Assembly (NCBI GenBank): GCA_024330215.1
Contig: JANDLU010000017.1
Span: forward strand, 1-50,338
DNA length: 50,338 bases
From: Candidatus Gaiellasilicea maunaloa
GTDB taxonomy: Bacteria > Actinomycetota > Thermoleophilia > Gaiellales > Gaiellaceae
Direction of reading: 5' to 3'
Shown here one piece after another: positions 3,658-35,768 of the stretch. The notes under the pieces are model-generated. The model did not search any database. It worked only from the letters and a program-made list of their open reading frames with translations, and had not been told where the DNA came from. Position numbers and translations under genes: made by a program. Positions within the stretch are counted from its first letter, which is position 1. Every line of letters starts with the position of its first letter.

Positions 3658-6600
3658 GTGGAGTTCCGCATTCTCGGGCCGCTCGAGGCCCGTTCTCGGG
3701 GTAGCTCGCTCCCGCTCGGCGGGACCAAGCAACGCGCCGTGCTGGCGCAGCTTCTCCTGCGGGCCGGCGAGGTCGTCTCCTGCGATCGCCTCGTCGAGGG
3801 GCTCTGGCAGACGCCACCCGAGACGGCGACGAAGGCCGTCCAGGTCCACATCTCGCAGCTCCGGAAGGCGCTTGCGCCGCACGTCGCGATCCACACCCGT
3901 GCACGCGGCTATGTGCTCGAGGTCGCGGCCGAAGACCTCGATCTCAGCTGGTCGGAGCGCCTGCGTGCGGAGGGACTGGAGGCGCAAGCTGCCGGCGACC
4001 TCGGCGCTGCGGCCTCGCACCTCCACGCCGCTCTCGCGCTCTGGCGCGGCCCACCGCTCGCCGAGTTCGTCCTCGAGCCGTTCGTCGCCGTCGAGTCGCC
4101 CCGGCTGGAGGAGCTCGAGCTCGCGACGCTCGAGGAGCGAATCGACGTCGACCTCGCCCTCGGCCGTCACGGCGGGCTCGTGCCCGAGCTCGAGGCGCTC
4201 GTCGCCGCGAATCCGCTCCGCGAGCGGATTCGCGGTCAGCTGATGCTCGCTCTCTACCGCTGCGGCCGCCAGGCGGCCGCGCTCGAGTGCTTCAGGGAGG
4301 CGCGGCGGCTGCTCGTCGACGAGCTCGGGATCGAGCCCGGACCCGCGCTCCAGCGGCTCGAGCGCTCGATCCTGGTCCAGGAGCCGGAGCTCGAGCTGCC
4401 GCTCCCGCCCTCGGGCCGGTCAGCGCCGCCGGAGCCGCCGGTACAGCCGCCTTCGCCGGCGCTCGTCTCGGCGCGTCCGCACCTACCGCCGCTCGAGGTG
4501 CGAAAGACGGTGACGACGATCTTCTGCGACGTCACCGGCTCGACGACTCTCGGCGAAGCGCGGGATCCGGAGCTGATGCGGCGCGTCATGTCGCGCTACT
4601 TCGATGAGATGCGTACGGCGCTCCAGGGTCACGGCGGCACCGTCGAGAAGTTCATCGGCGACGCGGTGATGGCCGTCTTCGGCACGCCGGTGCTACACGA
4701 GGACGACGCTCTGCGGGCGCTGCGGGCCGCGCTCGAGATGCGCGACCGGCTCGCGACCCTGAACGACGAGCTCGAGGAGTCGTTCGGGGTCCGGCTCGAG
4801 ATCCGGATCGGCGTTTGTACCGGGGAGGTCGTCGCCGGCGACCCCACTCGCGCCGAGACGTTCGTCACCGGCGACTCGGTGATCGTGGCGCAGCGCCTCG
4901 AGGCCGCTGCCGAGCCGGGCGAGATCCTCATCGCCGAATCGACGTACCGGCTTGCGCGCGGCGCCGTCCTCGCTGAGCCGCTCGAGCCGATGGCGCTGAA
5001 GGGAAAGGCGAAGCTCGTCCAGGCGTACAGACTGCTCGGGCTCGGCTCGACCAGCCCGGGCGTGCCCCGCCTCCGCTCGCCGATGGTCGGTCGCGGCCGA
5101 GAGCACCGGCTGCTCCAGGATGCCTTCGCCCGAGCGGTCCAGAGTCGCGCCTGCCATCTCTTCACCGTCCTCGGCCCCGCTGGGGTGGGCAAGTCGCGCC
5201 TCCTCGCAGAGGGTCTGGCCGAGATTGGCGACCGGGCCCGCGTGCTGAGCGGCAGCTGCCTCCCCTACGGCGAAGGGATCACCTTCAGGCCGGTCGCGGA
5301 GATCGTGGCGCAGGCCTTCGGAGCCGATCCGCGCGCCGGGATCGAGGCCATGGTCGGTGGTCCGGAAGCCGGCGTCGTCGCCGAGCATGTGACCTCGATC
5401 GTCGGCCGCGACGGATCCGGCAGCACGCCCGAGGAGGCCTTCTGGGCGATTCGGAGGCTCTTCGAGGCGCTGTCGCGCGAGCGACCTCTGGTACTCGTGT
5501 TCGACGACGTCAACTGGGCCGAGCCGACCCTGCTCGACCTGATCGAGCATGTCGCCGACTGGGTGCGCGACGTGCCGCTCCTCGTCGTCTGCATGGCACG
5601 GCCCGAGCTCCTCGACGGGCGTGGCTCCTGGGGCGGAGGCAAGCACAACGCGACCTCGATCTTCCTCGAGCCGCTCACGGCGCCCGAGACGGGTCGGCTC
5701 GCTCGCAACCTGCTCGGCCGCGGTGAGCTCGACGCGGATCTGGCGGCGCGGATCGAGCGCGCGGCCGGCGGCAACCCGCTCTTCGTCGAGGAGATGGTCG
5801 CGTTGCTGCTCGAGGAGGGACTGATCCAGAACGAAGGCGGCCGCTGGTCTGCCTCCGGCGAGCTGCGGGAGCTGCCGGTGCCGCCCTCGATCCAGGTGCT
5901 GCTCGCCGCCCGGCTCGACCTGCTCCCTCGCGAGGAACGCCAGGTGCTCGAACGGGCGGCCGTCGAGGGCCAACGCTTCCGCCGCAGCGCCGTGGAACGC
6001 CTGTCCGAGGAGTCGCCTGCACGCATCGCGGCTGCGCTCGGCGCGCTCGTCCGCAAGGAGCTCGTCCGCCCGGCGGGCGACGACGCGTTCCGCTTCCGGC
6101 ACCTGCTGATCCGCGACGCCGCTTACGAGGCGCTGCCGAAGCAGCTCCGTGCCGACCTGCACGAGCGGCTGGCGCGGTGGCTCGACGAGCGTGAAGAGGA
6201 GGACGAGCTCGTCGGCTACCACCTCGAGCAGGCCGTCCGATATCGCGCCGATCTCGGCCGTACCGGCGGAGATCTGGCCGGCGAGGCGGCAGCGCGGCTG
6301 GCAGGAGCCGGCCGGCGCGCGCTCGGCCGCGGCGACGTCCACGCAGCCGGAAATCTGCTCGACCGGGCCTCGGCTCTGCTTGCGGCAGACGATCCGCGTC
6401 GACTCGAGCTGGCACCGGAGCTCGGGCTCGCGCTCACCGAGGCCGGCGAGCTCGTCCATGCCGAGGAGATCCTCAGCGACGTGGTGATGCGGGCGGACGG
6501 AGGAGGAAGCGAGCTCGTCAGACTCGGCACCCGGATCGAGCGGGCGGCGCTGCGCCTCAAGAGCGACCCCAAAGGCGGCTGGGAGCGGGATCTGGAGCTG

Positions 6601-7551
6601 GTGGAATCGTCGTTGCCGACGCTCGACACGATGGCGGTGCCGGATCGGGGCGTGGATCGGGTGCTCGGCCGTGGCTGGTTCCTCGTCGGCCTCGTGAGGG
6701 GGCTCTGGACGGGCCAGGTCGCTCTCGGCGAGTCGGCGCTCGAGCGGGCGAGGATCCACGCGCGCGCGGCGGGCGACCGGCGGCAGGAGGCGGAGATCGT
6801 CGGTCGCCTCGGACTCGCCGCCTGGTCGGGTCCGCTACCGGTTCCAGAGGGGATCGAACGCTGCCTCGCGCTGCTCGAATCTGCCGAGGAGAACCGGTTC
6901 GTGATCGCGAGCTGTCAGCGCTGGCTGGGCGCGCTGGTCGCGAGACAGGGCAAGCTCGACGAGGCGCGCGGTCTGGTCGACGAGGCGGCGCTAGGGTACG
7001 AGGAGCTCGGCACGCGATTGAACGCTGCGGCGACGTTGGCGTTCGGGCATGCGGACATCGAGTCCCTCGCCGGCGACCCCGTGTCGGCCGAGAGCGCCCT
7101 CCGGCGTGGTTACGTCGTGCTCGAGCAGCTGGGTGAGCTGGGCTATCGCGCGAGCATCGGCGCCCTGCTCGCACGGTCTCTGCAAGCCCAGGGTCGTTCG
7201 AAAGAGGCCGCGCACTTCTCGCGGATCGTCGAAGAGACGGCTTCGAAGCACGACCTCTGGTCGCAGGTGATCCTCCGGCTCACCCGCGCGAGATCGCTCG
7301 CCGACGCGGGGCTCGTGACCGAGGCAGTGACGCTCGCGAGGGAGACCGTCTTCATCGTGGAGCAGACGGACTTGTTCGAGCTCCACGGCGACGTACTCCT
7401 CGAGCTCGGCGAGATTCTGCGTCTCGGCGGTCGCGACGCCGAGATGCGCGATTGCGTCGAGCGGGCGCTCGGTCTCTACGAGCGAAAGGCCAACGTCGTC
7501 TCGGCCGCGCGCGCCCGCGCCCTCCTGGAAGCCTCGGCTACCCGAGCGTGA
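3658..7551 (+). CDS. BTAD (SARP) - adenylate cyclase - AAA ATPase regulator
   Basis: 1297 residues from a GTG preceded by AAAAGGAG. Domains in order: an OmpR-type winged helix (about 1-90) and a BTAD domain (about 95-245), the SARP arrangement; a class III nucleotide cyclase (about 280-460: VTTIFCDVTGST, then FIGDAVMAVFG); an AAA/STAND ATPase with Walker A GPAGVGKS at about 505 and Walker B-like LVLVFDDVNWAE; and a C-terminal helical TPR-like region. The cyclase metal-binding Asp residues are present, so catalysis is possible. The architecture suggests a signal-integrating transcription factor. It converges with the borosin-like methyltransferase gene, their ends overlapping by 14 bp, so a regulatory link to that locus is possible but unproven. 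Confidence 0.85.
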   Translation: MEFRILGPLEARSRGSSLPLGGTKQRAVLAQLLLRAGEVVSCDRLVEGLWQTPPETATKAVQVHISQLRKALAPHVAIHTRARGYVLEVAAEDLDLSWSERLRAEGLEAQAAGDLGAAASHLHAALALWRGPPLAEFVLEPFVAVESPRLEELELATLEERIDVDLALGRHGGLVPELEALVAANPLRERIRGQLMLALYRCGRQAAALECFREARRLLVDELGIEPGPALQRLERSILVQEPELELPLPPSGRSAPPEPPVQPPSPALVSARPHLPPLEVRKTVTTIFCDVTGSTTLGEARDPELMRRVMSRYFDEMRTALQGHGGTVEKFIGDAVMAVFGTPVLHEDDALRALRAALEMRDRLATLNDELEESFGVRLEIRIGVCTGEVVAGDPTRAETFVTGDSVIVAQRLEAAAEPGEILIAESTYRLARGAVLAEPLEPMALKGKAKLVQAYRLLGLGSTSPGVPRLRSPMVGRGREHRLLQDAFARAVQSRACHLFTVLGPAGVGKSRLLAEGLAEIGDRARVLSGSCLPYGEGITFRPVAEIVAQAFGADPRAGIEAMVGGPEAGVVAEHVTSIVGRDGSGSTPEEAFWAIRRLFEALSRERPLVLVFDDVNWAEPTLLDLIEHVADWVRDVPLLVVCMARPELLDGRGSWGGGKHNATSIFLEPLTAPETGRLARNLLGRGELDADLAARIERAAGGNPLFVEEMVALLLEEGLIQNEGGRWSASGELRELPVPPSIQVLLAARLDLLPREERQVLERAAVEGQRFRRSAVERLSEESPARIAAALGALVRKELVRPAGDDAFRFRHLLIRDAAYEALPKQLRADLHERLARWLDEREEEDELVGYHLEQAVRYRADLGRTGGDLAGEAAARLAGAGRRALGRGDVHAAGNLLDRASALLAADDPRRLELAPELGLALTEAGELVHAEEILSDVVMRADGGGSELVRLGTRIERAALRLKSDPKGGWERDLELVESSLPTLDTMAVPDRGVDRVLGRGWFLVGLVRGLWTGQVALGESALERARIHARAAGDRRQEAEIVGRLGLAAWSGPLPVPEGIERCLALLESAEENRFVIASCQRWLGALVARQGKLDEARGLVDEAALGYEELGTRLNAAATLAFGHADIESLAGDPVSAESALRRGYVVLEQLGELGYRASIGALLARSLQAQGRSKEAAHFSRIVEETASKHDLWSQVILRLTRARSLADAGLVTEAVTLARETVFIVEQTDLFELHGDVLLELGEILRLGGRDAEMRDCVERALGLYERKANVVSAARARALLEASATRA

Positions 7552-8344
7552 GCCCGAGCCGGTCTGCGACCTGCGGATCGATCGGCCGCAACGCGAGCGG
7601 CGGTACATAGAGCGTCGGCCCGGGTGCTGCTTGGAGGCTCGCGAAGCCGTCGAGCCGGGCAGGCTCGATCGTCGGCCCGGCGATGGGGTAGAGGGACGCG
7701 CGGTAGAAGACGGCCTCGTGCTCGGGCGGATAGAACTCGAGCAGGTGCTGTGCGAGCGCGTGCAGGCCGCGCGGCTCCGGCTCGACGTTCCAGTCGAGCT
7801 TTCCGATCGCGTCGACCTGCCAGAGGACGACGGCCGCGGTCGGATCGAGCCGGTGTCGCCGAAGTAGCAGCTCGGTCGCTTCGTAGCTCTGCCACCCGCG
7901 CCTTCCGGGATCGACACCCAGGTCGGCGATGAGACAGTCCTCAGCCGAGATCGCGGGCAGCATCCGCGCCGGGAAGCCCTCCGCGCGGGCGAGGGCGATC
8001 GCCTCGTGGGAGGGCGTCACGAAGACCCCCGGATGGCCGTAGAAGGCCGCGCAGACGCGCGAGCCGCCCCGGACGGCGGCGAGGATCTCCTCGACCATCT
8101 CGGTATAGATCCGGCGACGCGGAACACCGGTGCGATAGAGCGCGTTCAGACTGCGAGCGCTTCCGTTCAGCTGTGCCAGCCATGTCGCCATGACCGGATC
8201 GGCGGCCACGAACAGAAGCTCATCGGCTCGCTCGAGCTCGTCGCGCGCTTCAGCGGTCAGCTGTCGGACGAGTTGGATCCCCGTTCCGACGACGACGAGC
8301 GAACCGGCTCCAGGTCGCTCGTGGGGCCTGGAAATCCGCGCTCG
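7538..8344 (-). CDS. Borosin-type peptide backbone N-methyltransferase
   Basis: The frame is open from 8344 to 7538 (up to 268 residues). It encodes [11 protein letters not shown] (SAM-binding N terminus of the tetrapyrrole-methylase fold), ADPV, a Y-x5-R-x3-Y element ([12 protein letters not shown]), FYGHPGVF and [16 protein letters not shown]. These match the alpha-N-methyltransferases of borosin RiPPs; the spacing of Tyr, Arg, Tyr and a later Tyr corresponds to OphMA Y66, R72, Y76 and Y98 as I recall them. The oddity is that no ATG, GTG, TTG or CTG lies between the upstream in-frame TAG (8347-8345) and the SAM motif. The first conventional start, GTG 8209, would delete 45 residues including GTGIQ. 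The precursor gene ends at that same TAG in the same frame. Readthrough, an ATT start at 8335, sequence error or an amber mutation are all possible. Confidence 0.85.
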
Positions 8345-8749
8345 CTAGCTCGCCGGATGGTGCGGGTGCTCGTCGGCCGGAGGTTCGTCGGCCGGAGGCT
8401 CGTCGGCCGGAGGCTCGTCGGCCGGAGGCTCGTCGGCCGGAGGCTCGTCGGCCGGAGGCTCGTCGGCGGGAGGCTCGTCGTCGCATGACGTGAAGATCCA
8501 CGGTCCCGGGATCGGACCGAGCCCGATCCAGATCGCTGCGAAGACGGCTTCGGTCTCCGGGTGCTCTGCCCGGACGGCGTCCTGGATCTGCCCGAGATTC
8601 CCGCCGCGCACGACCTTCTGCAAATCGTCGCTCAGACCCGAGCCGACGAACGTAGAGTCGGGATCCTTGTCGAACTGCTCGAGCAACTCGGGAGAGTGAC
8701 AGAGCGAGATCAGGAAGTTCGTTAGTGGAGCGCGTCTCTCCGGAGCCAT
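8345..8749 (-). CDS. Candidate split-borosin RiPP precursor
   Basis: 134 residues from the ATG at 8749 (an upstream TTG at 8785 would add 12). Residues about 8-62 form a small helical leader ([30 protein letters not shown]), resembling the LigA/Nif11-like borosin-binding domain of split borosin precursors. A hydrophobic stretch follows (residues about 69-88, [17 protein letters not shown]), which is the candidate methylated core. Seven exact DEPPA repeats come next, then DEHPHHPAS and a TAG. No strong Shine-Dalgarno precedes the ATG. The methyltransferase frame begins immediately after the TAG, in phase. Assignment rests on the leader, the hydrophobic core and the adjacent borosin-type methyltransferase; a non-RiPP linker protein is the alternative. 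Confidence 0.7.
8375..8479 (-). repeat. 15-bp coding repeat, seven DEPPA units
   Basis: Seven head-to-tail 15-bp units encode Asp-Glu-Pro-Pro-Ala inside the precursor gene. The units are almost identical in DNA, with one or two base changes in the outermost copies. Copy-number change would preserve frame. The peptide would be acidic, extended and soluble, fitting a follower or linker. Confidence 0.9.
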
Positions 8750-8838: not shown

Positions 8839-9000
8839 ATGGACGAACCGACCGAGAAGCCGAGAGAGCTCGCCGAGGAGGTCGAGCAGGGGCGTTCGGC
8901 ACGAACGCCGGCTCTTGCGATCTCGGGCGTGGCGATGGCGATCGGCGGGCTCTTCCTCGTGATCGGTGGGATCGCGTTGGCGGTCTATCTGCTGGCCTGA
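8839..9000 (+). CDS. Small single-pass membrane protein (53 aa)
   Basis: ATG at 8839, TGA at 8998-9000. The first ~23 residues are charged (MDEPTEKPRELAEEVEQG), followed by a glycine/alanine-rich hydrophobic helix ending VYLLA. It is divergent from the borosin-like precursor (start 8749) and lies just before lhr. No Shine-Dalgarno is obvious. It could be a small membrane factor for either neighbour, but no function can be assigned. Confidence 0.6.
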   Translation: MDEPTEKPRELAEEVEQGRSARTPALAISGVAMAIGGLFLVIGGIALAVYLLA

Positions 9001-35632: not shown

Positions 35633-35768
35633 GACGGTGCCAGACACGGTGCCAGAGACGGTGTCAGACACGGTGCCAGAGACGGTGCCAGAGACGGTGT
35701 CAGACACGGTGTCAGAGACGGTGTCGGAGACCGTGCCAGAGACGGTGTCAGACACCGTGTCAGAGACG
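35633..35768. repeat. 12-bp tandem repeat, about eleven copies
   Basis: Units of GACGGTGYCAGA/CACGGTGYCAGA, the reverse complement of the array at 1-76. It begins 4 bp after the mutS2 stop and ends two bases before the next ATG, replacing any normal ribosome-binding site there. The copies differ at a few fixed positions. Confidence 0.9.

Follow-up and report, generated by a model that had tools for sequence, protein, structure and literature searches.

Described borosins and the layout of the Thermoleophilia locus

The closest characterised counterpart of the locus described here is SonM/SonA of Shewanella oneidensis, a type IV split borosin in which the methyltransferase and the precursor are separate proteins encoded in the order enzyme-precursor; the five-helix leader of SonA is followed by a short linker and a hydrophobic core (PMC8429565). 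By 2021, a final product had not been assigned to any type IV split borosin (PMC8429565). A split borosin is already known from Actinobacteria, since the pair of Streptomyces sp. NRRL S-118 has been validated, with an adjacent short precursor of about 75 residues (PMC8429565). The fungal borosins OphMA, dbOphMA and MroMA are instead single fused proteins with the order enzyme-clasp-core, while in type 0 borosins the core is N-terminal and the enzyme C-terminal (PMC11395268). Borosin types IV-X have been placed in bacteria in a review.

We analysed a stretch of 50,338 nt from contig JANDLU010000017.1 of Candidatus Gaiellasilicea maunaloa, hereafter the window. On its minus strand, the frame running from 8749 to 7538 holds a 134-aa small protein, an in-frame TAG (8345-8347) and then 268 in-frame methyltransferase codons. 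The small protein, which a preliminary description had placed directly upstream of the enzyme, is indeed a 134-aa ORF from ATG at 8348-8749 (minus strand) and is the only borosin-binding domain (BBD) match in the genome. Its parts are a leader with a borosin-binding domain (residues 8-62; 8564-8728), a predicted hydrophobic core (residues 68-86; 8492-8548) and an acidic proline-rich tail read from the translation as the tandem repeat (DEPPA)7 (residues 90-134; 8348-8482). The frame of the borosin alpha-N-methyltransferase (7538-8344, minus strand) is conserved from a GSL at about 8305 and stops at 7538-7540. The two genes are discrete and adjacent, separated by the TAG plus 45 nt ahead of the point where the enzyme becomes conserved. 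At its 3' end the methyltransferase overlaps by 14 bp a convergent gene on the plus strand (3658-7551), the 1297-aa product of which has Pfam matches to Trans_reg_C and BTAD (SARP-like), a class III cyclase, AAA_16/STAND and TPR.

We consider it very probable that this locus is a split (type IV-like) borosin RiPP pair within a conserved cassette that includes the adjacent signalling protein, the methylation and its sites being predicted. The resemblance to SonM/SonA extends to the separate methyltransferase and precursor, the catalytic residues, and the predicted five-helix leader followed by a linker and a core-like hydrophobic segment; an adjacent TPR signalling gene is shared with close Shewanella-type orthologues of that pair. 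The differences are the reversed gene order (precursor-enzyme), a precursor of 134 aa with a long DEPPA tail against 71 aa for SonA, the missing start codon of the enzyme, and a convergent cyclase-STAND-TPR neighbour where Shewanella-type orthologues have a TPR-GGDEF gene. The Streptomyces pair, which we liken to the window pair by its description, has a precursor without a comparable long tail. The fused fungal borosins share the catalytic fold and motifs with the window enzyme, and the OphMA clasp matches the leader profile described below, although here the genes are separate. As in type 0 borosins, the precursor portion precedes the enzyme, and in the window the two share a frame; a TAG divides them here, and the frame relation is not conserved among relatives. 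The pair had been taken for a complete minimal borosin system, a description that we revise because the enzyme has no normal start codon and the adjacent cyclase-STAND-TPR gene had been missed. The claim that no protease lies nearby stands for the immediate neighbours of the pair, among which we found no protease or transporter gene.

The methyltransferase

Among PDB sequences searched with HMMER, the best match of the enzyme was SonM of Shewanella (E 2.7e-50), and the fungal dbOphMA, MroMA and OphMA matched at 1e-43 to 1e-47. Published work on SonM mutated or discussed its residues Y58, R67, Y71, Y93 and F99; all five are identical in the window enzyme in the HMMER alignment, and the Y-R-Y set is invariant across 11 aligned sequences. 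All four motifs of the borosin fingerprint noted at the outset, including GTGIQ and Y-x5-R-x3-Y, were recovered in the one minus-strand frame, which is open throughout, retains its catalytic residues and is 46-58% identical to family relatives. The enzyme part of the AlphaFold2 model has mostly pLDDT >90, and its predicted fold scores VIA Z 28-30 against the borosin enzymes OphMA/SonM and Z 16-18 against siroheme and cobalamin methylases. The reading of 7538-8344 as a split-borosin alpha-N-methyltransferase with its own precursor has good support from sequence and profile matches, from the predicted fold and from the conserved pairing of the two genes. Only the enzyme part of a model of the read-through fusion was used and the leader was folded alone; the leader part and the docking in the fusion model are meaningless, because MAFFT set precursor rows against the enzyme region.

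Leader, predicted core and tail of the precursor

The leader was detected by an HMM built from other precursors, with SonA and its relatives in the seed and the window precursor held out (E 7e-13), ranking first among 611 window ORFs, the next best of which scored 0.73. This rules out that a small ORF was taken for a precursor by chance; a leader search of the whole window genome returned no further precursors. Single PDB sequences compared by phmmer gave matches to SonA chains only, at E 0.36-0.59. Since SonA alone matches the precursor at just E 0.36, the homology of the leader is carried by profiles and fold. A profile of 30 precursors matched SonA at 2e-21, a value partly due to the inclusion of near-SonA rows, and it also matched gallate dioxygenase and residues 321-375 of the OphMA clasp (the latter at E about 0.003). 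Both matches are in line with the resemblance of the borosin-binding domain to the OphMA clasp and dioxygenase caps that has been described (PMC8429565). TALE and armadillo-repeat rows in the same search held no individually significant stretch and were ignored.

In an AlphaFold model of precursor residues 1-91 the leader folds into five helices, and the top 28 Foldseek matches of the model are all SonA chains (E >0.1, probability 0.87-1.00). The best VIA match has Z 7.2 with 1.9 A over 54 residues, a score that is weak by itself for a helical bundle; what counts is the exclusive ranking of SonA. Through HMM, profile and fold, the leader-like helical domain first noted at residues 8-62 is thus confirmed as homologous to the SonA leader and the OphMA clasp.

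Beyond the leader, the hydrophobic segment at residues 68-86 aligns with the methylated residues of SonA-type precursors and, judging from this alignment, is likely the borosin core; its second half is rich in glycine and proline. The 45-residue repeat tail that follows is encoded by DNA (8368-8480) with a period of 15 bp, 7.5 copies and 96% match, and is most likely a follower, serving as a spacer or solubility tail, rather than the main core. A Pfam match of the precursor to extensin reflects merely the proline-rich repeat, and a match to the IniB N-terminus fell under the cut-off. Partly repeated tails rich in Asp/Pro or Asp/Gly (DPDP, EHPPT, GEHTGDDDGP) recur in distant split borosins, in cyanobacterial loci (L018-L054) and in L085, L014 and L015. 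We propose that the leader domain would dock on the methyltransferase, which would use SAM to methylate backbone amides of approximately residues 68-86, as SonM does on SonA, with the DEPPA tail as a follower and with the pair acting as part of a conserved cassette with a large signalling protein, here of the cyclase-STAND-TPR type.

The junction of precursor and enzyme

From the TAG at 8345-8347 to GTGIQ there is no ATG, GTG or TTG. Reading the codons over this interval, the only plausible near-cognate start is an ATT at 8333-8335 (minus strand), which is a possible, though unproven, site of initiation. Given the lack of ATG, GTG or TTG, the window copy could be poorly expressed, in decay or the product of misassembly. 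Standard starts are missing from 8 of 100 enzymes, mostly in the clade of the window, a count in which L008 and L009 appear twice because they also carry other locus numbers. A candidate CTG of the enzyme overlaps the TGA of the precursor as CTGA in L010 and L016, which have no ATG, GTG or TTG; L008 and L009, likewise without these codons, have in common a CTG a few bases past the precursor stop. These CTG junctions suggest that unusual coupled starts are tolerated in this clade, and from its sequence the window junction also looks like translational coupling with an unusual start. In L014 (G611:C21) the start region of the enzyme lies in a different frame from the remainder, consistent with a frameshift or a sequencing error in that MAG.

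Alternative explanations

The locus could also be read as a pair that is genuine by descent and is now decaying, the enzyme having lost its start while the repeat tail expanded in an unselected precursor. The absent start codon, the near-identity of the 15-bp repeats and the restriction of the locus to 10 of 103 family genomes would fit such a history, but the enzyme frame with its intact catalytic residues and its identity to relatives would not, and the other enzymes without standard starts, with CTG junctions in L010, L016 and L008/L009, suggest that unusual coupled starts are tolerated in the clade; we regard decay as unlikely. Read-through of the TAG, yielding a fused precursor-methyltransferase that resembles type 0 borosins, is less probable still. 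It is suggested by the shared frame with only a TAG between the two genes, by a natural fusion of leader, core and enzyme in L061 and by the description of type 0 borosins (PMC11395268). The single open frame of a type 0-like protein is, however, interrupted here by the in-frame TAG, and in close relatives the precursor and enzyme stand in frame relation 0, 1 or 2, as chance would give, which rules out the TAG as a conserved read-through signal.

That methylation is directed to the DEPPA tail as the core, and not to the hydrophobic segment, seems doubtful to us. Support comes from L014, L015 and L016, which carry repeat tails or tails rich in Asp, Gly and Pro, L014 even without a hydrophobic core, and from the Asp-Pro-rich tails of cyanobacterial precursors; the cores of type III borosins also have alternating acidic residues (PMC11395268). 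Against this, it is the hydrophobic segment that aligns with the residues methylated in SonA-type precursors, a short hydrophobic core is all that most close relatives have, and methylation is impossible on proline nitrogens. Membership of the enzyme in the Pfam family TP_methylase (PF00590, E 3.3e-17) could point to a cobalamin or siroheme methylase beside an unrelated small protein. This reading retains a negligible probability and is ruled out by family and fold scores: the structure-prediction check called for in the preliminary description placed the enzyme nearer to OphMA/SonM (Z of about 30) than to tetrapyrrole methylases (about 17), NCBIfam precorrin methyltransferase and cobalamin models matched only far under their cut-offs, and the SonM match and the conserved pairing with leader-bearing precursors favour a borosin. 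The split borosin pair remains our preferred reading.

Distribution of relatives

The enzyme was found in 10 of 103 genomes of the family, 12 of 399 of the class and, among 396 genomes sampled across the phylum, in the window genome itself only. Outside this group the enzyme is widespread: at least 573 related stretches occur in GTDB contigs, and the enzyme relatives listed include those of cyanobacteria, acidobacteria, Chloroflexi, proteobacteria, Streptomyces and archaea, with the named relatives from the same family (L017 and L057) being Thermoleophilia MAGs. In the tree, the window enzyme groups with the other enzymes of the family at modest support (82/91). A leader ORF is present in 79 of 93 relative loci, mostly near the enzyme. 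With the window pair, an enzyme class already known gains a member from Thermoleophilia, one whose precursor has an unusual repeat tail.

Among the relatives are archaeal records of split-borosin enzymes, most with leader-bearing precursors, for which MAG contamination is possible: L023, L024, L027, L038 and L045 (Thermoplasmata), L047 (Methanomassiliicoccus) and L051 (Nitrososphaera). Fused forms also occur. In Methylocystis (L061:4605-5777) leader, core and enzyme form one type 0-like frame, and in two further loci (L050:3176-4183 and L056:3001-4008) a leader is fused directly to an enzyme and followed by a second enzyme gene.

Signalling genes beside split borosins

A protein related to the cyclase-STAND-TPR neighbour adjoins each of the 11 borosin loci in the family, in ten cases convergently (eight of these overlapping the enzyme end) and in one on the precursor side. 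The window regulator is one of a large set of paralogues, to which 69 of 103 family genomes have matches. Borosin-bearing genomes of the family have 7-40 cyclase genes each, so that chance adjacency would be about 0.5-5% per genome; the product of these chances (1e-17) is overstated because the loci are related by descent. The far flank nevertheless varies, with the Lhr helicase adjoining just 3 of the 11 loci. Just before the Lhr helicase gene, the window has a 53-aa ORF on the plus strand (8839-9000) with a hydrophobic C-terminal stretch, which is 81% identical in G677 of the same genus.

Signalling genes neighbour borosins in other phyla as well, and their domains differ by lineage. The neighbours are cyclase-TPR proteins in Thermoplasmata, cyclase-STAND-TPR proteins in Alphaproteobacteria, BTAD-STAND-TPR proteins in Chloroflexi, kinase-STAND proteins in cyanobacteria and one gemmatimonad, kinase-TPR proteins or histidine kinases in Acidobacteria, and TPR hybrid histidine kinases in Alteromonas relatives. 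In close Shewanella-type orthologues of SonM/SonA (L169, L170-L176) the precursor gene is followed at once by one for a TPR-GGDEF protein; in L169, the enzyme of which is 92% identical to SonM, this gene (L169:6823-8829) begins with a TTG immediately after the precursor TAG. A GGDEF or histidine-kinase gene lies near the pair in 12 of 14 loci fetched from the Shewanella-type order.

As a control, we compared the borosin locus with another TP_methylase locus from the same 40 genomes over about 10.6 kb each, using kinase and cyclase HMMs from genes not chosen for borosins and histidine-kinase and STAND HMMs from borosin neighbours. Signalling domains were near 29/40 borosin loci and 4/40 control loci (Fisher p 7e-9), a pattern noticed after the fact among loci that are phylogenetically non-independent; the other 11/40 borosin loci had none of these domains. 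A large sensor of at least 550 aa within 1 kb, counted as a kinase, histidine kinase, cyclase, GGDEF or STAND protein, mostly with TPRs, accompanies 26/40 borosin loci, or 27/40 if the GGDEF protein of L076 is included, against 1/40 controls (a GGDEF protein in L099). Because few signalling genes may lie around housekeeping anchors, genome-wide kinase density was used too, from which 2.5 kinase-bearing borosin loci would be expected and 14 were seen. Since output domains vary from one lineage to another, the sensor link seems to have been retained repeatedly; we found no earlier mention of it in the borosin literature searched, a search that covered the likely sources in part.

We tentatively hypothesize, as a possibility somewhat short of even, that many split borosins are signalling cassettes in which the backbone-methylated peptide or its precursor serves the adjacent TPR/STAND sensor as ligand or modulates it, and in which the sensor output has been swapped between lineages among class III cyclases, Ser/Thr kinases, hybrid histidine kinases, diguanylate cyclases and SARP-type domains. 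Under this hypothesis, the 3658-7551 protein would sense the window borosin or be tuned by it. TPRs are known binders of peptides and proteins, as in RRNPP receptors. A weaker version, in which the sensor controls borosin production, may be on par with the peptide acting as ligand. Kinases, cyclases and GGDEF proteins as a rule do not bind DNA, so a plain cluster-regulator role misfits some lineages. The putative functional link between the borosin pair and the signalling protein would, if true, add a new kind of peptide signal that is ribosomally made, backbone-methylated and served by swappable receptors. More generally, a sensor link conserved across many phyla, including SonM/SonA orthologues, provides a handle on the role of borosin peptides.

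Elsewhere in the window, 12-bp repeat arrays (GACGGTGTCAGA / CACCGTGTCTGG) lie at 1-71 and 35633-35768, one of them at the very end of the contig.
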